In this document: positions 171-39,722 of the stretch, piece by piece
Layout: each line of letters begins with the position of its first letter
Numbering within the stretch: position 1 is the first letter of the stretch
Assembly: GCA_020723805.1 (NCBI GenBank)
Contig: DYID01000024.1
Span: forward strand, 1-53,952
Reading direction: 5' to 3'
From: Anaerolinea sp.
GTDB taxonomy: Bacteria; Chloroflexota; Anaerolineae; Anaerolineales; Villigracilaceae
DNA length: 53,952 nucleotides
The notes under the pieces: generated by a model
Databases searched by the model: none
Told to the model about the DNA's origin: nothing
The model's input: the letters and a program-made list of their open reading frames with translations, nothing else
Made by a program: the position numbers and the translations under genes

Positions 171-824
171 ATGTCGAAACACCCCGAAAAGAAAATTTCC
201 GTATTGATCGTGGACGATCATCCGCCATTACGGGCGGGGGTTAGTGCCATGCTGGAGAAAACGCCTGATATTTATGTTATCGGTGAAGCAGGGAGCGGAG
301 AAGAAGCGGAAAGATTGCTCGATGAACTGCGCCCCAATATTATCCTGCTCGACTTGAAAATGCCTAATTTTTCTCCATCGGCTTTTGAAAAATGGGCGCG
401 TGAAAAGTACCCCGAAACGGTCACTTTGGTCCTGACCGCGCATGACCGCGACGCCTACCTTGCGAGCATGATGGAGGCTGGCGCGGTCGGCTTTTTGGAT
501 AAAGAGGCGAGAGCAGAACAGTTGATCGAGTCAATTCGCCGCGCGGCTTCGGGGGAAAGTCTTTATGACGAGTGGCAGAAAAAGAGAGCGCGCAAATGGC
601 GCGATGAAGTGGAGAAGAAGTGGAATAGTTTATCGGAAAGGGAACGACAGGTTTTGCGCTTGCTGGCGGAAGGGCTAAACAACAAGGACATTGCCTTGAG
701 GTTGGGCATTACCATCAAGACGCTCGATAAGCATTTTGAGAAGATTTACCAAAAACTCGAAGTGACTTCACGGACAGATGCGGCTTTGTGGGGAAAAGAA
801 CATGTGGGGGATTTTCCGTATTGA
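171..824 (+). CDS. Two-component response regulator, NarL/LuxR type
   Basis: This 217-residue DNA-binding response regulator has an N-terminal receiver domain (about 9-128) with the acidic pair D15/D16, phospho-acceptor D61, T89 and K111. It also has a C-terminal LuxR-type helix-turn-helix (about 153-210) with the SERERQVLRLLAEG and NNKDIA segments. A basic linker, about 135-150, joins them. GGAGG lies seven bases upstream of ATG 171. No histidine kinase is adjacent, so the partner is elsewhere or left of the window. Two secreted-protein genes follow on the same strand and could be its targets, but that is inference. Confidence 0.9.
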   Translation: MSKHPEKKISVLIVDDHPPLRAGVSAMLEKTPDIYVIGEAGSGEEAERLLDELRPNIILLDLKMPNFSPSAFEKWAREKYPETVTLVLTAHDRDAYLASMMEAGAVGFLDKEARAEQLIESIRRAASGESLYDEWQKKRARKWRDEVEKKWNSLSERERQVLRLLAEGLNNKDIALRLGITIKTLDKHFEKIYQKLEVTSRTDAALWGKEHVGDFPY

Positions 825-27547: not shown

Positions 27548-30124
27548 ATGAAGAATCGAATCATGACGGTTTTCGGTTTGCTGGTTGTGTTGAGCATGGT
27601 GCTCGCCGCCTGCGGACCCGCCGAAACAGCCACTGAGGCGCCTGCGCCTACCCAACCGCCTCAAGCGCAACCCACTGAGGTGCCGCCTACGCCCGAACCC
27701 ACGCCTGTTCCGCGCACCACGCGTCATGGCGGCTGGCTGGATACCATCACCATGGTCGCCGTTTCTCCGGATGCCGTGGTGACCCAACTTCAGGCTGGGC
27801 AGATTGACCTCTATGCCTCTGCTTTGGGCCGCGCCGAAGATTTCAAAGCCGCTCAAGAAGCCGGGTTGCAGTACAACCAGGTCTATGGCGGCGCGTACGA
27901 ACTCACCTTCAACCCCTATGGCGGCGGTGAGAATGGCGCCACCTTCGATCAATCCACGGGCAAACTCAATCCCTTCGCTGTGCCTGCCATCCGCGAAGCG
28001 ATGAACATGCTGGTTGACCGCAGTTACATCGTTCAGGAAATCTACGGTGGTCTGGCGGCTCCCAAGTTCTTCCCCATCAACAGCGCCTTCCCCGACTATG
28101 CTCTCCTGGCGGATGTCGCCCGCAAACTGGAAGCCCAGTATGCCTACAACCCCGATAAAGCCAATGAAATCATCACTGCCGAAATGGAAAAACTGGGCGC
28201 CACCAAAGACGCCAACGGTAAGTGGACATTCAACGGCGAACCGGTTACCCTGATCTTCATCATCCGCAATGATGGCGACGGCACCCGTCTGCCCATCGGT
28301 GACTACGTCTCCAATCAACTGGAGAGCATCGGTTTCACCGTGGACCGCCAGTACAAGACCTCGTCTGAGGCTTCGCCCATCTGGATTCGCGGTAACCCGG
28401 CGGATGGTCTCTGGCACCTCTACACCGGCGGCTGGATCACCACTGCGGTAAGCCGCGACGACGGCTCCAACTTCCAGTTCTACTATACTTCCAAGGGGCT
28501 CGGTCAACCGCTCTGGCAGGCTTACAAGCCCTCTGCTGAGTTCGAGGCGCTTGCCGATAAACTTGCTGCCAATGATTTCACCACCCTTGAAGAACGCCGT
28601 GAACTGTTTGCCCAGGCGCTCGAACTGGCAATGAAAGACTCCGTCCGCGTCTGGCTGGTGGATCAGAAAGCCTTCAGCCCCTTCCGCCAGGGTATCTCCG
28701 TGACCGGTGACTTGGCTGGTGGTATTCAGGGCGCCCAACTGTGGGGCTTCACCGCCCGCTATGAAGGTCAGGAAGGCGGCGAATTGAAATACGCCATGTC
28801 CGACCTGCTGGTCGAGCCGTGGAACCCCGTTGGCGGTTCCAACTGGGTGTATGACACCGCTCCCAAGCGCGCCACTGCCGACTACGGCGTGATCACGGAT
28901 CCGTTTACCGGTCTTGCCTGGCCCCAGCGCATTGAATCGGCGACGGTGACCGTCAAGGAAGGTCTCCCTGTCGGCAAGACCCTCGACTGGGTGAATCTCG
29001 AATTCGTCCCCGAAATTCAGGTCCCGGCGGATGCGTGGGTGGATTGGAACGCCGAAACCCAGACCTTCATCACCGCTGGTGAGAAATATCCCGAAGGTCT
29101 GACCGCCCTGCGCAAGAGCGTTGTGACCTACCCGTCCTCGCTGTTCACTGACTACAAGTGGCACGATGGCAGCACCTTCAGCCCGGCTGACTTCGTCATG
29201 TGGCTCATCATGCAGTTCGATCCCGGCAAAGAAGCCAGCCCGATCTTCGATGAAGCGGCTGTCAGCAACCTCGAATTCTTCTTGTCCAACTTCAAGGGCG
29301 TTCGCATTACCTCCACCGATCCCTTCACGGCGGAATGGTACACCGATGCTTATGCCCTGGATGCGGAACTGAACGTCACCACCCTGTGGCCCGAATATGG
29401 TTACGGCAATGCGCCGTGGCACATGATCGCCATGGGCAACCTGGCGGAAGCCGCCGGTGAACTGGCGTACACTGCCGACAAAGCCGACGCCAAGCAGGTG
29501 GAGTGGATGAGCTTCATTGATGGTCCGAGCCTCGAAATCCTGGGCAAGTACCTCGATCAGGCGGAAGCCGAAAAATACATCCCCTACGCACCCACTCTCG
29601 GTCAGTACATCACGGCTGAGGAAGCCGCCGCCCGCTATGCCAACATGAAAGCCTGGTATGCCGAGCACGGTCACTACTGGGTCAACAGTGGTCCTTACAT
29701 GCTCGACAAAGTGTTCTCTGTCGAAAAGACCCTGACCCTCAAGAACAACGAGAATTACATTGACTTGGCGGACAAGTGGGCGCGCTTTGCCAAGCCGCGT
29801 GTTGCTGAGGCGGAAGTGGACGGTGAAGGACGCGTCACCATCGGTCAGGAAGCGGTGTTCGATGTCTTCGTCACCTTCGAAGGTGAACCGTACGCCTCTG
29901 CCGACATCGCTGAGGTCAAATACCTGCTGTTCAATGCCAACGGCGAACTTGCCGCGACCGGCGTGGCGGAAGCCGCCGGCGGTGAAGGACAGTACACTGT
30001 CACCCTGCCTGCCGATGTGACCTCCAAATTGCCGGCTGGCTCCAACAAGCTCGAGGTCGTGGTTGTCTCCAAACTGGTTAGCATCCCGACCTTCGCGCCG
30101 TTCGAATTTGTGACTGCTCCGTAA
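27548..30124 (+). CDS. ABC transporter solute-binding lipoprotein, family 5, apparently permuted
   Basis: This 858-residue binding protein has a lipobox LSMVLAACG (Cys near residue 19) and a Thr/Pro/Glu linker. In family 5 the order is N-lobe, KWHDG-type motif, GTGPY motif, then the GxID and VRxALxxAiDR elements. Here AGQIDLYA (about 95) and AIREAMNMLVDRSYIV (about 148) come first. LEPWNPVGG-type N-lobe material, KWHDGSTFSPADFV (about 537) and SGPYMLDKV follow. The C-terminal ~105 residues look like an extra beta-sandwich domain. That order fits a circular permutation. GGAGGAGG precedes ATG 27548. Confidence 0.85.
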   Translation: MKNRIMTVFGLLVVLSMVLAACGPAETATEAPAPTQPPQAQPTEVPPTPEPTPVPRTTRHGGWLDTITMVAVSPDAVVTQLQAGQIDLYASALGRAEDFKAAQEAGLQYNQVYGGAYELTFNPYGGGENGATFDQSTGKLNPFAVPAIREAMNMLVDRSYIVQEIYGGLAAPKFFPINSAFPDYALLADVARKLEAQYAYNPDKANEIITAEMEKLGATKDANGKWTFNGEPVTLIFIIRNDGDGTRLPIGDYVSNQLESIGFTVDRQYKTSSEASPIWIRGNPADGLWHLYTGGWITTAVSRDDGSNFQFYYTSKGLGQPLWQAYKPSAEFEALADKLAANDFTTLEERRELFAQALELAMKDSVRVWLVDQKAFSPFRQGISVTGDLAGGIQGAQLWGFTARYEGQEGGELKYAMSDLLVEPWNPVGGSNWVYDTAPKRATADYGVITDPFTGLAWPQRIESATVTVKEGLPVGKTLDWVNLEFVPEIQVPADAWVDWNAETQTFITAGEKYPEGLTALRKSVVTYPSSLFTDYKWHDGSTFSPADFVMWLIMQFDPGKEASPIFDEAAVSNLEFFLSNFKGVRITSTDPFTAEWYTDAYALDAELNVTTLWPEYGYGNAPWHMIAMGNLAEAAGELAYTADKADAKQVEWMSFIDGPSLEILGKYLDQAEAEKYIPYAPTLGQYITAEEAAARYANMKAWYAEHGHYWVNSGPYMLDKVFSVEKTLTLKNNENYIDLADKWARFAKPRVAEAEVDGEGRVTIGQEAVFDVFVTFEGEPYASADIAEVKYLLFNANGELAATGVAEAAGGEGQYTVTLPADVTSKLPAGSNKLEVVVVSKLVSIPTFAPFEFVTAP

Positions 30125-30222: not shown

Positions 30223-31368
30223 ATGAGCGCAGAGACCCAAGCCCTGTCACCCGGTCAACCCATTAAAGTCAAACGAAAAGCGTTTTCCAACACGTTGAGC
30301 CGCGTTGCCAAATATACTGCCTTGCGGCTGGTTACGTTGTTTGTGACCGTTGTCATTGGCATTTATCTCACCATCCTTATCGCCAACATGGGCGGCTATG
30401 TGGATGAGATTTTGCGCGGCGAAATCCGCGAGCGGATTTCTGTTGGTGTTTCCAACAATCCCGCCTTTCGCGATTACACCCCCGAAGAACGCAGTAAATA
30501 CATTGACGAACGGGTGGCGCTGGAGGAGGAACGCCTCGGTCTGAACCGTCCGTTTGCCGTGCGCAGTTTTGCCTTTTTACGCAACGCCCTGACCTTGAAC
30601 CTGGGACGCGCCATCAACATGACCAGCGACAGCGGTTCCAAGCAGGTCACCCTCATTATTTTGGAACGTTTGCCATCCACGCTGTTGCTGTTTGGAATTG
30701 CCAACCTTGCCTTGTTCTTTTCCAGTGTTTTTATTGCGCTGAGTCTGTCGCGTCATTATGGCAGTTTTTGGGATAAGGTCATTCTGGTGCTAACGCCTAC
30801 CTCGGCGGCGCCGCCTTGGTTCTACGGCATTTTCCTCATCCTCATCTTTGCCGCTCTCTTGAAAATCCTGCCGTTTGGCGGCATGGTGGATGCTCCTCCG
30901 CCGGACAACTGGTTCGACTATGCTTTGAGCGTCCTCCGTCACATGATTCTGCCGTCCCTCGCGTTGATCCTGGCATCCATCTTTTTGAGCATTTATAACT
31001 GGCGCACGTTTTTCCTGATCTACTCGAGTGAAGATTATGTAGAAATGGCAAAAGCCAAAGGATTGAACGCGCGCGACATCGAACGCCGCTACATTCTGCG
31101 CCCGACCCTGCCCACCATCATTACCAGTTTTGCCCTGCTCCTCATCGGTCTGTGGACGGGGGCAATCATCACCGAGACGGTGTTCAACTGGCCCGGCTTG
31201 GGGCGCACATTATTCCGCGCCATTGGCTTATACGATACGCCCGTGATTGTGGGCTTAACCATCATCTACGCTTACCTTCTGGCAATCACAGTCTTTTTGC
31301 TCGATATTATTTACGCCCTGGTTGACCCGCGCGTCAAAGTGGGCGGAAGCGGCGGCGGTGGAGCATGA
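30223..31368 (+). CDS. ABC transporter permease (DppB/OppB type)
   Basis: This 381-residue inner-membrane protein has the BPD_transp_1 fold. After TM1 (about 24-46) comes a long periplasmic loop of about 110 residues (DEILRGEIRERISVG ... NRPFAVRSFAFL). Five more helices follow, with the EAA-type coupling loop YVEMAKAKGLNARDIERRY before RPTLPTI. The end NWPGLGRTLFRAIGLYDTPVIVG is typical. It overlaps the next permease by 4 bp (ATGA). Substrate probably peptides or other oligomers, judged from the family only. Confidence 0.92.
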   Translation: MSAETQALSPGQPIKVKRKAFSNTLSRVAKYTALRLVTLFVTVVIGIYLTILIANMGGYVDEILRGEIRERISVGVSNNPAFRDYTPEERSKYIDERVALEEERLGLNRPFAVRSFAFLRNALTLNLGRAINMTSDSGSKQVTLIILERLPSTLLLFGIANLALFFSSVFIALSLSRHYGSFWDKVILVLTPTSAAPPWFYGIFLILIFAALLKILPFGGMVDAPPPDNWFDYALSVLRHMILPSLALILASIFLSIYNWRTFFLIYSSEDYVEMAKAKGLNARDIERRYILRPTLPTIITSFALLLIGLWTGAIITETVFNWPGLGRTLFRAIGLYDTPVIVGLTIIYAYLLAITVFLLDIIYALVDPRVKVGGSGGGGA

Positions 31369-32714
31369 AAGCATTTCTCAGTACCTTCAAAGAAATCGGT
31401 CGTTACCCCTCGGCTATTGCCGGGCTGGTGATCATCGGTATCCTGATCATCATTTCCATTTATGCCTTGGTGACCATTCCCTATGACGAGGCAGTTCGGC
31501 TCTGGCGGGGAGGTGAGGATATTTGGTATGCCAATCCTAAAACTGCACCGCCTGCCTGGTTCAATTTCTTCTCGCGCAAGAAGCAACCCGTCACGTTGAC
31601 TATCAGCAGCGCACGCGGCGAAGCGGAGAAAGAGGTCGTGCCGGGCAGCGCCGATACCACCGATATCAATCTTACCTACACCTTCGATTACCAGTACGAC
31701 GATTTTCCCACTGAATTGACTTTCTACTTTACCAGTAAGTTTGTTTCCAAACAGCCGTTCGTTGCCATTCGCTGGATCACTCCCGATGGACGGGAACTGC
31801 GTGTTGCCGATTTCGGTATCAACGCCCGCCAAACCTACCGCGCCTCACAAGACGAAAAACTAACACGACGTTTGGGCAGACTGCCGGCTGAAGTGGGACT
31901 GTTTGCCGACCCCAATTCCGACCCTGCCAAGCCGGTGCCGTTGAAAGGCACGTACCAAATTCGCATCGAAGGCGTGGTCTTCGAGCCGGATGCGGATATC
32001 AATGCGGAATTTGTCATGCAGGGAAAACTGGCTGGCTGGGCTGGTACCGATCACCAGCGCCGCGACCTGATGGTTCCGCTTCTGTGGGGTACCCCCGTGG
32101 CGCTCGCCTTTGGTCTGGTGGCGTCGCTGGGTACGGGGCTTCTGACCATGATCATTGCGGCGTTTGGCGTCTGGTATGGCGGCTGGGTGGATGAGCTCAT
32201 CCAACGCATCACCGAAATCAATTTGGTCCTGCCCTTCCTCTCCATCCTGATCATGGTGGGGACCTTCTATTCCCGCAGTATTTGGACTATTTTGGGCGTG
32301 ACCATCCTGCTGAGTATCTTTACAGGCGGCATCAAGAGTTACCGCGCCATCTTCATGCAGATCAAGGAGACCACCTACATCGAGGCGGCGCGCGCTTATG
32401 GCGCCAGCGACATGCGCATCATTTTCCTCTACCTGATTCCGCGCATCATTCCCGTCTTGATTCCCGGCTTGATCTCCGGAATCCCTGCCTTTGTCTTTCT
32501 CGAAGCATCGCTGGCGGTGCTGGGATTGGGTGATCCGGTCCTGCCGACGTGGGGCAAAATTATCAACAATGCCTTTACCAATGGCGCCCTCTATAACGGT
32601 CAATACTATTGGGTGTTGGAGCCTGCCGCCCTGTTGATGATCACCGGCTTTGCGTTTGCCATGCTGGGCTTCTCGCTCGACCGCATTTTTAATCCACGCT
32701 TGCGAGGTCTCTAA
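31365..32714 (+). CDS. ABC transporter permease (DppC/OppC type) with large extracytoplasmic insert
   Basis: This 449-residue protein is about 150 residues longer than usual DppC proteins. TM1 is about 17-40. The region 45-225 is a Tyr/Phe/Thr-rich, probably beta-rich domain (PAWFNFFSRKKQPVTLTI ... ADINAEFVMQGKLAGW) on the outside. The canonical GTDxxGRD motif survives as GTDHQRRDLMVPLLWGTPVAL. The coupling loop YIEAARAYGASDMRIIFLY is intact. The insert could dock the permuted binding protein, which is inference. Its stop lies 3 bp before the ATPase gene. Confidence 0.9.
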   Translation: MKAFLSTFKEIGRYPSAIAGLVIIGILIIISIYALVTIPYDEAVRLWRGGEDIWYANPKTAPPAWFNFFSRKKQPVTLTISSARGEAEKEVVPGSADTTDINLTYTFDYQYDDFPTELTFYFTSKFVSKQPFVAIRWITPDGRELRVADFGINARQTYRASQDEKLTRRLGRLPAEVGLFADPNSDPAKPVPLKGTYQIRIEGVVFEPDADINAEFVMQGKLAGWAGTDHQRRDLMVPLLWGTPVALAFGLVASLGTGLLTMIIAAFGVWYGGWVDELIQRITEINLVLPFLSILIMVGTFYSRSIWTILGVTILLSIFTGGIKSYRAIFMQIKETTYIEAARAYGASDMRIIFLYLIPRIIPVLIPGLISGIPAFVFLEASLAVLGLGDPVLPTWGKIINNAFTNGALYNGQYYWVLEPAALLMITGFAFAMLGFSLDRIFNPRLRGL

Positions 32715-32717
32715 GCC

Positions 32718-33677
32718 ATGCCGAAACACCAGAAACTTCTCCAAATCAAAAATCTGACCCTGCATTTCCGCACGCAAAAAGGCGACGTGCAGGCGGTGGA
32801 CGGGGTGGATTTTGAACTCGATTACAACCGTGCGGTCGTCATCCTGGGTGAATCGGGTTGTGGAAAGAGTTCGCTCGCCAAAGCCATTCTGCGTCTGCTG
32901 CCCCGCAATGTGAGCAAATACGCCGGCTCGATCATTTTCGAGGGCAACGATGTCATGCAGTTGAGCGACGAAGAATACCGCCAGAACGTGCGCTGGGTCG
33001 CCATGTCGCTGGTGCCGCAGGCGGCGATGAACGCCCTCAACCCGGTCATCCGCGTGGGAGACCAGGTGGCTGAGCCGGCAGTCGTTCACCTCGGCTTGAG
33101 TAAAACCGAAGCCCTCCAGCCCGCGTTGAAAATGTTCCGTCATGTGGGCGTGCCGGACGATTTCATTGACCGCTATCCATTCGAACTGAGCGGCGGCATG
33201 CGTCAGCGTGTTGCCATTGCCATGGCGCTGGTGACCTCACCCGGCCTCATCATTCTGGATGAGCCGACCTCCGCCCTCGATGTTCTCACCCAGGCAAATA
33301 TTTTCAATGTCCTCAAACGCATCAAGCAGGAACTGGGGACCAGTTTCATCCTGATTACGCACGACATCGCCACCTCCAGCGAACTGGCGGACGATGTAGC
33401 GGTGATGTATGCCGGGCAGATTGTGGAAGTTTCTGATGCCCGCCGCTTCTTTCATGAACCGCTCCATCCCTATTCGCAAAAACTCATGGCAAGCGTTCCG
33501 CGTCTGCGGCAGGAGAAGGACCCGGAATTCATCACCGGGCAGCCCCCCAGCCTGATCAACCCGCCTAAGGGATGCCGCTTTGCGGCGCGCTGCCCCAAAC
33601 GTTTCGCAAAGTGCGACGAGGAACCGCCTGTCATCGAACAGGATGGGCGCAAAGTCAAATGCTGGCTGTATGCCTAG
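32718..33677 (+). CDS. ABC transporter ATPase (DppD/OppD type)
   Basis: This 319-residue cytoplasmic ATPase has Walker [10 protein letters not shown] (44-52), Q-loop VPQAAMNALNP, signature LSGGMRQRV, Walker B LIILDEPTSALD and H-loop THD. The C-terminal Opp-type extension has CRFAARCPKRFAKC ... CW, the four-Cys pattern of this subfamily. It starts 3 bp after the permease stop, and it should pair with the OppF-type ATPase encoded next. Confidence 0.93.
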   Translation: MPKHQKLLQIKNLTLHFRTQKGDVQAVDGVDFELDYNRAVVILGESGCGKSSLAKAILRLLPRNVSKYAGSIIFEGNDVMQLSDEEYRQNVRWVAMSLVPQAAMNALNPVIRVGDQVAEPAVVHLGLSKTEALQPALKMFRHVGVPDDFIDRYPFELSGGMRQRVAIAMALVTSPGLIILDEPTSALDVLTQANIFNVLKRIKQELGTSFILITHDIATSSELADDVAVMYAGQIVEVSDARRFFHEPLHPYSQKLMASVPRLRQEKDPEFITGQPPSLINPPKGCRFAARCPKRFAKCDEEPPVIEQDGRKVKCWLYA

Positions 33678-33696: not shown

Positions 33697-34728
33697 ATGA
33701 GCAATATAACCACGAATACAGCCGAGGGGAAAATGGTTTCCTCTTCTGATAAACAACCTTTAGTGTCCATCCAAAACCTGCGGGTGTGGTTCGAATTACG
33801 GCGTTTCGGATTTGGTCACGCCGGCTGGGTACGTGCTGTGGACGGTGTCAGTTTCGACTTGGCGGCGGGCGAAGCCATCGCAGTGGTCGGCGAGAGTGGA
33901 TGCGGCAAGTCCAGCCTGATGAAGAGCATCCTGGGGTTGTACAAACCGACCGAAGGCGACATCCTTTTCGATGGGACGAAGATGAGCGAGTATGACCGCG
34001 CCAAAATGCGCTGGTATCACTCGCGGGTCGGTTATATTCAACAAGACCCCTATGGCGCTTTGCCGCCGTTTATGACGGTTGCCCGTATTTTGGAAGAACC
34101 CCTGATTGTGGCGGGCATAAAAGATAAGGCGGAGCGCGAACAACGCATTCTCAAGGCGATGGAGGAAGTCAAACTGACACCGCAGGAGGATTTCCTGCCC
34201 AAGTTCCCGCACATGCTGAGCGGCGGACAGCAGCAGCGCGTGGTCATTGCACGCGCCATGATCATGGAACCGAAACTGCTTGTGGCAGACGAACCCGTCT
34301 CCATGCTGGATGCCTCAGTGCGCGTGGAAATCCTGAAACTGCTGCGCAATCTTCAGGAAAATCACCACCTTTCGGTTATTTATATTACCCACGACTTGGC
34401 GACTGTCAGCTATTTTTCGGAGCGTATTTTTGTGATGTACGCGGGCAAACTGGTGGAAAAAGCCAAAGTCCAGCAGTTGCTCCATAACGCTCTGCATCCC
34501 TACACCCATGCCCTGCTCGCGGCGACCTCCGACCCGGATGCCGACAACGCGACCCGCTTTCGTGATGTCCCTCCGGGCGAACCGCCCAGCCTGGTCAAAC
34601 CGCCCACGGGCTGCCGTTTTCACCCCCGCTGTCCCAAGGCGATTGCAGGGCTGTGCGAAAAGGAGGACCCACCGGAATTCGAGCCGGAACCTGGTCATCT
34701 GGTTGCCTGCTGGTTGTATAAGGAATGA
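33697..34728 (+). CDS. ABC transporter ATPase (DppF/OppF type)
   Basis: This 343-residue ATPase has Walker [11 protein letters not shown] (about 64-73), Q-loop QQDPYGALPP, signature LSGGQQQRV, Walker B LLVADEPVSMLD and THD. A C-terminal Opp-type extension holds [15 protein letters not shown] ... CW. The start ATG 33697 has GGAGG at 33685-33689. It overlaps the next small gene by 4 bp. Confidence 0.93.
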   Translation: MSNITTNTAEGKMVSSSDKQPLVSIQNLRVWFELRRFGFGHAGWVRAVDGVSFDLAAGEAIAVVGESGCGKSSLMKSILGLYKPTEGDILFDGTKMSEYDRAKMRWYHSRVGYIQQDPYGALPPFMTVARILEEPLIVAGIKDKAEREQRILKAMEEVKLTPQEDFLPKFPHMLSGGQQQRVVIARAMIMEPKLLVADEPVSMLDASVRVEILKLLRNLQENHHLSVIYITHDLATVSYFSERIFVMYAGKLVEKAKVQQLLHNALHPYTHALLAATSDPDADNATRFRDVPPGEPPSLVKPPTGCRFHPRCPKAIAGLCEKEDPPEFEPEPGHLVACWLYKE

Positions 34729-37343: not shown

Positions 37344-37424
37344 TGCCCGACATACGCAACCATCACTGTCGTTGAATGTTCGTAACGTCAAGTCAAACCC
37401 CTAAATTACGTGAGGAGAAGAACT

Positions 37425-39722
37425 ATGCGTAAACTGTTTTACCTCTTGAGCCTGTTGGTCGTTGCCAGCATGCTCCTCGCGGCGTGCGGCGGCACTGCGA
37501 CCGCCACGCAAGCGCCTGCAGAATCGGGCGCCACGCCAGAACCTGCGCCGGCTGGCTTCAAATCCAAGGATCCCACCACGCTGGTGATTGCCTCCTTTGG
37601 CGGTCCTGAAACCCTCGATCCCGCTTTGGCATACGAAACCGCCGGCGGCGAAATCATCCAGAACGTCTATGAGACCCTGGTCTTCTACGATGGCGAAGCC
37701 ACCGATAAATTCGTCCCGCAGCTGGCTGAATCCTGGGAAGTTTCCGAAGACGGCAAGGTCTACACCTTCAAGATCCGCTCCGGCGTGAAATTCCATGACG
37801 GCGCCGACCTGACCGCCTCGGACGTGGCATATTCCTTCCAGCGCGGTCTGCTCTTCGGCGGTTACAGCGGTCCCCAGTGGCTGCTGGCTGAACCGTTCTT
37901 CGGCATCGGTGTTGACGATATCTCCCTTGTTGTCGCTGACATTGTCGCCACAAAATTGGATGCGAAGGCTGACGAGTTGGTCGGTGCGGTGGATCTGACC
38001 ACCTTCAATGAGGATGCCTTCGGCACCCTGCTCGGCGACCTTGCGAGTGCTTACAAGGATCTCTCCGGTATCGAAATTGATACTGCCGCTCTGCTGGCCG
38101 ATGAAGCCAATGTTACGGCTGTCGCCGACTTGATGGCCGGTCTCGCCACTGCTGCTGACGATGATGCCCGCCGTGCTTCCATTAAGACCGCCGCAATGGA
38201 CATGCTAGCCGCGGATGCCTCGGTGCTCGCCGATGATCCTGAGGGCATGGCCAAAATCAGTAAGGATGTTGCGACTGAAGCTGCCAACCGTGTGATGAGC
38301 GCCATTGTTGCTGACGACACCGCCGGCACCGTCACCATGACCCTTGCTCAGCCGTGGGGTCCGTTCCTTGCCACCATCGCCCAAGGTTGGGGCTCTATCC
38401 TCGATAAAGATTGGGCAGTAGCCCACGGTGCTTGGGATGGAAATCCTGACACTTGGCAGAACTACTACGCCGTTCCATCGGAGAGCGACCCGCTGACCAC
38501 CATCATGAACGGCACGGGTCCCTTCAAACTCGAATCCTGGACCCAGGGTGAGGAACTCGTCCTCGTCCGCAACGACAACTACTGGCGCGAACCTGCCAAA
38601 CTCGAACGCATCGTCATCAAATACATTGACGAGTGGGGCACCCGCTTTGCCATGCTGCAGACGGGCGATGCCGACATCGTCGCCGTTCCGTCTGAAAACC
38701 GCTCGCAGGTGGACGCCATGGTCGGCGTGATGCGCGTCTTTGACCTCGCTGCCAACACCTACGGACCGGAAATTGAAGTTTGTGGTTACGATCCCTCCAA
38801 GCAGGGTGTCGAGAAATTCATCCCCTGTGAAGCGGGTCAAACCAGCACCAACCCCATTCGCCTCTACATCGGACGCCCGTCCCTCGCCAGCCAAGACCTG
38901 TTCATGACCTTCCAGATTGCGGAAGGCTCCAACTACGTCGGCTCCGGCAAACTGGACGGCAACGGCATCCCGCTGGACTTCTTCTCGGATCTCCACATCC
39001 GCAAGGCGTTTGCCTACTGCTTCGACTGGGAAACCTACATCAGCGATGTCTTCGACGGTGAAGCGGTGCAGCAGCCCGTGCTTGCCCGCCAGGGCATGCC
39101 CGGTTACCAGGCTGACGCCCCGGTCTACACCCACGACCTCGCCAAATGCGAAGAGGAATTCAAACTGGCTGACCTCGACAAGGACGGCATCCCCGCAGGT
39201 GAAGATCCCGAAGGTGACGTCTGGACGACCGGCTTCCGCCTCCAGGCGCTCTACAACCAGGGCAACACCTCCCGCCAGGTGGTCTCCCAGATCCTCTCCA
39301 GCAATGTCGCTGAAGTCAACGAACTGTTCGTGATCGAGACCGTGGGTCTGCCCTGGCCCACCTTCCTGCGCACCATCCGCGCCAAGCAGTCGCCCTACTT
39401 CGTGAGTGGCTGGCTGGAAGACATCCACGACCCGCACAACTGGTACCAGCCCTACATGGTTGGCACCTATGCGAGCCGCCAGAATATGCCTGCCGAACTG
39501 AAGGCGCAATTCCAGGATATCCTCAACCGCGGTGTCGCGGCGACGGATCCGGCTGAGCGCCAGAAGATCTACGAAGAGGCAAACAAACTCTTCTATGAGC
39601 AGGTTCCGACCATCCTGCTTGCCACCGCCACCAGCCACGGCTTCGACCAGCGCTGGGTGAAGGGGCGCCTCCTGAACCCCATCTTCTCCGGCGATTACTT
39701 CTACACCATGTACAAGGAGTAA
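37425..39722 (+). CDS. ABC transporter solute-binding lipoprotein, family 5
   Basis: This 765-residue lipoprotein has lipobox SMLLAACGG (Cys near residue 22) and an Ala/Thr/Pro linker. The order is canonical: PETLDPALAYE, LAESWEVSEDGKVYTFKIRSG, KFHDGADLTASDVAYSF, NGTGPFKLESW, DADIVAV and IRKAFAYCFDW. Residues about 160-302 hold a ~94-residue Ala/Asp-rich insert (ATAADDDARRAS ... MLAADASVLADDPEG) absent from its paralogue at 42702-44672. TGAGGAGAAG precedes ATG 37425. Substrate probably a peptide or other oligomer, inferred only from the family. Confidence 0.9.
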   Translation: MRKLFYLLSLLVVASMLLAACGGTATATQAPAESGATPEPAPAGFKSKDPTTLVIASFGGPETLDPALAYETAGGEIIQNVYETLVFYDGEATDKFVPQLAESWEVSEDGKVYTFKIRSGVKFHDGADLTASDVAYSFQRGLLFGGYSGPQWLLAEPFFGIGVDDISLVVADIVATKLDAKADELVGAVDLTTFNEDAFGTLLGDLASAYKDLSGIEIDTAALLADEANVTAVADLMAGLATAADDDARRASIKTAAMDMLAADASVLADDPEGMAKISKDVATEAANRVMSAIVADDTAGTVTMTLAQPWGPFLATIAQGWGSILDKDWAVAHGAWDGNPDTWQNYYAVPSESDPLTTIMNGTGPFKLESWTQGEELVLVRNDNYWREPAKLERIVIKYIDEWGTRFAMLQTGDADIVAVPSENRSQVDAMVGVMRVFDLAANTYGPEIEVCGYDPSKQGVEKFIPCEAGQTSTNPIRLYIGRPSLASQDLFMTFQIAEGSNYVGSGKLDGNGIPLDFFSDLHIRKAFAYCFDWETYISDVFDGEAVQQPVLARQGMPGYQADAPVYTHDLAKCEEEFKLADLDKDGIPAGEDPEGDVWTTGFRLQALYNQGNTSRQVVSQILSSNVAEVNELFVIETVGLPWPTFLRTIRAKQSPYFVSGWLEDIHDPHNWYQPYMVGTYASRQNMPAELKAQFQDILNRGVAATDPAERQKIYEEANKLFYEQVPTILLATATSHGFDQRWVKGRLLNPIFSGDYFYTMYKE

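Follow-up and report, generated by a model that had tools for sequence, protein, structure and literature searches.

Gene organization and parts of the permuted protein

The stretch of DNA analysed here (the window) is contig DYID01000024.1, 53,952 nucleotides long, from the Anaerolinea sp. assembly GCA_020723805.1. Its forward strand carries a gene for a binding lipoprotein of family 5 (SBP_bac_5, PF00496) in which the two halves of the chain appear in swapped order, followed by the genes of an OppBCDF-type importer:

27548-30124, + strand: open reading frame of the permuted family-5 (SBP_bac_5) binding lipoprotein (858-residue translation)
27548..27613, + strand: signal peptide with lipobox LAAC, residues 1-22 (from sequence; lipidation of Cys22 inferred)
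27614..27727, + strand: Pro/Thr/Glu-rich linker, residues 23-60 (from sequence)
27728..28774, + strand: canonical C-terminal half, in first place, residues 61-409 (Pfam, A1 profile, structural model, hhalign)
28775..29791, + strand: canonical N-terminal half, in second place, residues 410-748 (A1 profile, hhalign)
29792..30121, + strand: extra C-terminal beta domain, residues 749-858 (eight strands in the model)
30223..31368, + strand: OppB/DppB-type permease of the same operon (BPD_transp_1, E 5.9e-31; conserved gene order)
31365..32714, + strand: OppC/DppC-type permease whose transport domain is preceded by a long insert (BPD_transp_1 at 263-447 of 449)
32718..33677, + strand: OppD-type ATPase (ABC_tran and oligo_HPY)
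33697..34728, + strand: OppF-type ATPase (ABC_tran and oligo_HPY; frame open from 33580, ATG start at 33697 inferred)

The lipobox LAAC occupies residues 19-22 of the sequence. Located by script, the motifs of the first half are GGWLDT at 61, AGQID at 83 and AIREAMNMLVDR at 147, and those of the second half are GGELKYAM at 410, WNPVGG at 425, KWHDG at 537, SGPYML at 714 and NENYIDLADKW at 734. The initial annotation had AGQID and AIREAMNMLVDR preceding KWHDG and SGPYML, an order that is borne out; its position for KWHDG (537) is exact, and those for the first two motifs (about 95-160) and for SGPYML (725) are slightly off. It had compared this order with that of three other binding proteins of the window (37425, 42702 and 44796). 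An HMM of 30 canonical proteins places all three in canonical order, but the motifs named for them, sought with simple regular expressions, were found only in part in 42702 and 44796. The canonical-order binding protein at 37410-39722 contains large inserts and matches Pfam in three separate stretches.

The additional C-terminal domain, first put at ~105 residues, measures ~110 residues in the predicted model, with eight beta strands and block pLDDT values of 84-96. It may be Ig-like, a suggestion that rests on strand count in the model only. The domain matched no Pfam family in a search at E up to 1, and blastp found no match to it in relatives L043, L044, L057, L058 and L059.

Swapped order of the two halves

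At 91.5 bits, above the curated PF00496 cut-off of 32.4 bits, the protein meets the criterion for the family. SBP_bac_5 is the only Pfam family that it matches with the E limit set at 1. The match is split in two, its better stretch aligning residues 64-314 with positions 148-363 of the 368 in the profile; with no other Pfam match at this threshold and no cluster-B chain among the fold matches listed, we have no sign of a cluster-B protein, without this being excluded. A profile built from 16 relatives (A1) and run against solved structures matched TkOppA of Thermococcus kodakaraensis (PDB 7fi3, chain A) at E 2.2e-72. The match comes as two pieces whose order is swapped: profile 62-343 corresponds to chain 316-618 and profile 484-740 to chain 63-307. 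Homology in these two stretches extends over both halves, as is required for a TkOppA-like subfamily.

Profile-profile comparison by hhalign of 30 canonical class-mates with the 801-residue mature form of the protein gave the same picture, columns 3-331 aligning with canonical positions 271-558 (E 5e-23) and columns 349-505 with canonical 73-173 (E 8e-9). Canonical position 73 lies at about the start of the mature canonical chain, and as the second half aligns from there we infer that the old ends were joined with little or no linker; GGELKYAM at residue 410, the junction, coincides with the canonical mature start. The N-terminal half is too divergent for the canonical HMMs, and its assignment comes from TkOppA, the family profile and hhalign.

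Both parts thus have homologous counterparts in a single canonical protein, with their order exchanged, the old ends joined and new ends elsewhere, as a circular permutation requires. The canonical linear order of the PF00496 fold, by contrast, is not met, and since the protein aligns in two swapped pieces with both TkOppA and the canonical profile we file it as a permuted variant rather than as an ordinary member. The inference of the initial annotation that a former C-terminal part had come to lie ahead of the N-terminal lobe is in agreement with Pfam, 7fi3, the profile-profile comparison and the predicted structure. As a control of the inversion method, none of 92 rows taken as canonical was flagged as inverted; most of these rows had been chosen by their Pfam coordinates, so that the control tests the method (no false inversions) and not the frequency of permutation.

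Predicted structure

AlphaFold2 with 62 aligned sequences yielded a model with a mean pLDDT of 93.8 and a pTM of 0.88, whereas prediction from the single sequence (pLDDT 37.6) was unusable. The best PDB fold match of the model was again 7fi3 TkOppA, VIA-align superposing model residues 1..351 on 7fi3 334..755 (Z 27.6, rmsd 2.6, 344 residues). Most VIA-align rows lie within model residues 1-354, with four reaching 387 and one 551, and the second half was not covered alone. A structure with its motifs in the normal topology would have refuted the permutation; no support for it was found, the first 351 model residues superposing on the C-terminal half of canonical chains, with the proviso that the second half was not aligned by itself.

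Conservation of the permuted order

Relatives of the protein are encoded in 320 stretches of the contig collection, which was scanned with a narrower alignment (A2), A1 being too divergent for the scan; analysis continued with the 80 best loci. In every one of the 82 ORFs matched there, a single frame runs from C-half through N-half to beta domain, so that the homologue search proposed at the outset does reveal an order held in common. It occurs in the named strains Anaerolinea thermolimosa IMO-1 and Bellilinea caldifistulae GOMI-1, and a 97% identical copy (L064) with the same order lies on a 1.06 Mb contig; identity falls to about 30% in distant groups. The permuted profile was matched at E 1e-25 by 38 of 400 Chloroflexota genomes (with at most two candidates scored per genome), and matches also occurred in 10 of 149 genomes sampled around G449, a Clostridia bacterium and the genome of L121. 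One frame holds both halves in permuted order in nine of the 12 loci fetched from this group (L179-L190). L189, at a contig edge, has the N-half followed by the beta domain, and in L188 and L190 blastp picked up the C-half alone; the match of L188 to the permuted profile covers positions 61-836. The plasmid collection contained no match to the permuted protein at E 1e-5.

Further permuted family-5 proteins

We call the family of the window protein, cut at site B, type 1, and the family of L194, cut at site A, type 2. L194 (G000:C13) comes from the source genome itself, where 11 PF00496 matches fall in 8 genes. It matches PF00496 with profile positions 63-365 first and 2-54 after; against the HMM of 30 canonical proteins it reads as a signal, 175-544 and then 75-169; and against the solved relative 3m8u, residues 89-474 correspond to chain 122-504 and residues 486-588 to chain 8-117. 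Inversion against the canonical HMM was seen in 32 of 32 type-2 locus rows (30 genes). A listed row across the permuted junction was present in 37 of 301 genomes of the phylum (at most four candidates scored per genome), and at least eight of the 16 class-sample genomes have a site-A gene (G000, G095, G230, G254, G608, G610, G612 and G606).

L272 (G606) falls within a canonical subfamily, and its halves match the canonical protein L255 in swapped order at 55% (81-479 to 167-547) and 69% (486-625 to 24-158). Its gene precedes permB-permC, like the canonical gene in L279, with a second binding protein and the ATPases of the operon on the other side; a copy that is 89% identical occurs in G658.

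The G449-group sample comprised 148 PF00496 rows from 41 genomes, some genes having two rows, and contained at least 10 permuted genes: four of type 1 (in G449, G460, G493 and G473), one at site B that is not type 1 (L313) and five at site C (L310, L311, L312, L316 and L317). All 44 of the fetched rows that had looked canonical are single-stretch. L314, L315, L318, L319 and L324, candidates on account of partial PF00496 rows, turned out to be canonical or merely broken. L320 is a site-A protein and L321 a site-B protein in a 1479-residue frame.

Placed with a 578-position HMM of 86 canonical proteins, the cuts fall at 178-198 (site A), 255-277 (site B, with 277 from L004) and 377-418, mostly 399-410 (site C), and in permuted rows measured on both sides they nearly abut in profile coordinates. 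L059 (G441), of type 1 by sequence, starts midway through the C-half and closes with the first part of that half. It retains an internal GAWV where type-1 proteins begin (GAWVD in the type-1 consensus, GGWLD in the window protein), and looks like a second permutation on top of the first, from canonical to site B to site C.

Independence of the permutation events

In a tree of the C-half (89 blocks), type 1, together with TkOppA, and type 2 (17 of 18 rows) formed separate starred clades, type 2 lying among canonical proteins, and the eighteenth row labelled type 2, L272, paired with canonical L255. AU tests rejected a single clade of type 1 and type 2 (p 0.00011) and one of type 2 and L272 (p 0.0004), but not one of type 1 without TkOppA (p 0.37), of site C without L059 (p 0.16) or of site B with L059 (p 0.057). 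A 120-row tree required nine changes of state; this was a quick tree in which 49 of the 117 inner branches are open and several end branches are long, and the site label of its eight type-1 rows was assigned by default from earlier comparisons.

TkOppA, canonical in its order, nests inside type 1 (97, starred, in the 89-block tree) beside L187/L188. This position could reflect a return to canonical order, several separate cuts at site B or the misplacement of a long branch; because of this nesting, a single site-B event for type 1 is not shown. Taking cuts at different sites as different events gives a floor of five (type 1, type 2, L272, the site-C group and L059) and about nine by parsimony. 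We consider it probable that family 5 is a natural hot-bed of circular permutation, the two genome groups sampled accounting for no fewer than five and perhaps as many as about nine independent events, each at loop A, B or C. On this view a signal-like segment was kept N-terminally where the start was read, L059 passed through successive cuts (canonical to site B to site C) that left GAWV as a fossil within its chain, and permuted forms can take the place of a canonical relative in the operon (L272 versus L255) and accept receptor fusions in front (SBP_bac_3, Peripla_BP_6).

Origin of the permuted chain

We infer that such a chain probably arose when gene copies were duplicated in tandem or fused, in frame, after which one copy lost its 5' part and the other its 3' part, the signal peptide being retained. 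The old termini would thereby have been closed, the end of the C-terminal half running into the old mature start GGELK..., and new termini opened at site B, the loop that immediately precedes the former C-terminal half; the two-lobed fold is presumed unchanged, with the lipid tether leaving from another point. The long frames examined yielded no intermediate of tandem duplication carrying either half twice. L057, L222, L210 and L270, considered as such, instead have other domains fused to the permuted protein, and the opening ~350 residues of L269 appear, by eye, to be frame outside the gene.

Alternatively, each half might derive from a different binding-protein gene, the two having been fused head to tail, an origin that the authors of work on TpMglB-2 considered for the permuted part of that protein (PMC4990184), and the type-1 halves do differ in their similarity to the canonical profile (E 5e-23 against 8e-9). 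We regard such shuffling as unlikely, given that L255 is the best canonical relative of both L272 halves (55% and 69%), that TkOppA, the best solved relative of type 1, is matched across both halves, and that the cuts nearly abut in profile coordinates where both sides were measured.

Operon context and proposed function

Two BPD_transp_1 permeases and two ABC_tran/oligo_HPY ATPases adjoin the gene, which satisfies the gene-context criterion for an importer receptor. Binding protein, permB and permC follow one another in 75 of the 80 loci, with both ATPases next as well in 65. Many of the 15 loci without the full operon end at or near a contig edge (they were not checked singly), which does not apply to L070, L077 and L125. 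In L077 a 14 kb locus encodes three type-1 binding proteins, and the usual permeases follow none of them there; the genome as a whole has six matches. In the OppC-type permease of the window (31365-32714) the extra stretch lies between the first membrane segment and the transport domain, and the best hits among solved DppC/OppC chains align only from residue 209-225 of 449 onwards.

The window protein is very probably a naturally circularly permuted family-5 (cluster C) lipoprotein receptor of an OppBCDF-type importer, its ligand and transport being inferred. Most likely it is a Venus-flytrap peptide receptor of the importer encoded downstream, for which there are no ligand or transport data. 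7fi3 was solved with a bound pentapeptide according to the title of the PDB entry, and it is by analogy with TkOppA and from the operon alone that we infer a peptide ligand and stimulation of the transporter. A peptide-like ligand would be bound by Venus-flytrap closure and handed to the cognate OppBC pore.

The permuted protein could also have become a sensor or scaffold that borrows the fold and no longer serves an importer, as its extra beta domain and the fusion of permuted relatives to a matrixin-like peptidase (L057) or to binding proteins (L222, L210, L270) might suggest; with the importer operon retained in most of the best 80 loci, and OppB-, OppD- and OppF-like genes also following L059, this seems quite improbable. 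We give still less credence to two half-receptors acting as separate modules within one chain: the junction could in principle be a linker, but GFTARYEGQEGGELKYAM is too tight for a long one and lies at the canonical mature start, and the model has high confidence along its whole length (pTM 0.88). A faulty assembly or a wrong join between contigs, a concern already voiced in the initial annotation and one that a window made up of a whole contig from a 54-contig draft invites, can practically be dismissed, as many genomes and two named strains have the same order in single frames, a single-frame order found in all of the 80 best loci, including IMO-1 and GOMI-1, and in L064.

Relation to known systems

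Circularly permuted binding proteins are known mainly from engineering, as a means of building biosensors. Its repeated natural occurrence, including L272 with its 55% and 69% matches to L255, offers a ready-made test of the role of chain order in folding, flytrap closure and docking to the transporter, and the natural cut sites are candidate positions for reporter insertion. Moreover, a PF00496 match with a late start in the profile may be mistaken for a fragment even when it belongs to a complete, reordered protein.

The window protein resembles DppA/OppA/AppA-type proteins (PF00496) in its family profile, the fold of the aligned part and its operon partners, and differs from them in its swapped halves, its extra C-terminal beta domain and a new N-terminus behind the lipobox. 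TkOppA is its best solved relative, by profile over both halves and by fold, but has a chain in canonical order, which is why it aligns with the A1 profile in two swapped pieces.

A permuted binding lipoprotein is already known. TpMglB-2 (Tp0684) is described as a naturally circularly permuted glucose-binding lipoprotein of cluster B, with a permutation that its homologues in treponemes and Gram-positives share, for which the name cluster Bc or type Ic was proposed and a link between permutation and membrane anchoring raised (PMC4990184). Natural circular permutation of an ABC binding lipoprotein is common to both cases; TpMglB-2 represents cluster B, a sugar ligand and, as described, one permutation, whereas the family-5 proteins here represent cluster C, three cut sites and several events (PMC4990184). 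The surprise is the recurrence within family 5, with two cases in the source genome. In the open-licence literature, judged by titles and abstract openings, we found no description of a permuted family-5 binding protein; most subscription-journal papers and all preprints lay outside this scope.

Fusions and other variants

Several permuted proteins carry additional segments. A matrixin-like Peptidase_M10 domain (HEIGHTLGL) is fused ahead of a type-1 protein in a 1082-residue frame (L057:3481-6726, minus strand; the same gene as L044). Type-2 proteins are preceded by SBP_bac_3 in L222:1483-3936 (minus strand) and L270:439-3288, and by Peripla_BP_6 in L210:1477-3810 (minus strand), a frame that reaches the contig end (L288). 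L270 has CTKCH, a cytochrome-c-like stretch, ahead of its SBP_bac_3 part and sits between Liv-like (by eye) and DppBC-like genes. In L321:2783-7219, the site-B part is followed by a long repeat region that by eye resembles surface-adhesin repeats.

Within type 1, L055, L045/L053, L054 and L056 have ~100 extra residues in the N-half, a stretch that in L055 is Ala-rich and probably helical. In the distant members L048, L049 and L051 the beta domain appears by eye to be followed by a C-terminal membrane anchor, and so the tether sits at the other end. Nor are all other permuted proteins plain lipoproteins: L313 and L187 have, by eye, a signal-like start without a clear lipobox. Upstream of the type-2 gene of L194 lies what by eye is a Radical-SAM-like gene (L282:2741-5188; L194, frame +3, 3-1118) with an intein-like stretch ending in LVSNC.
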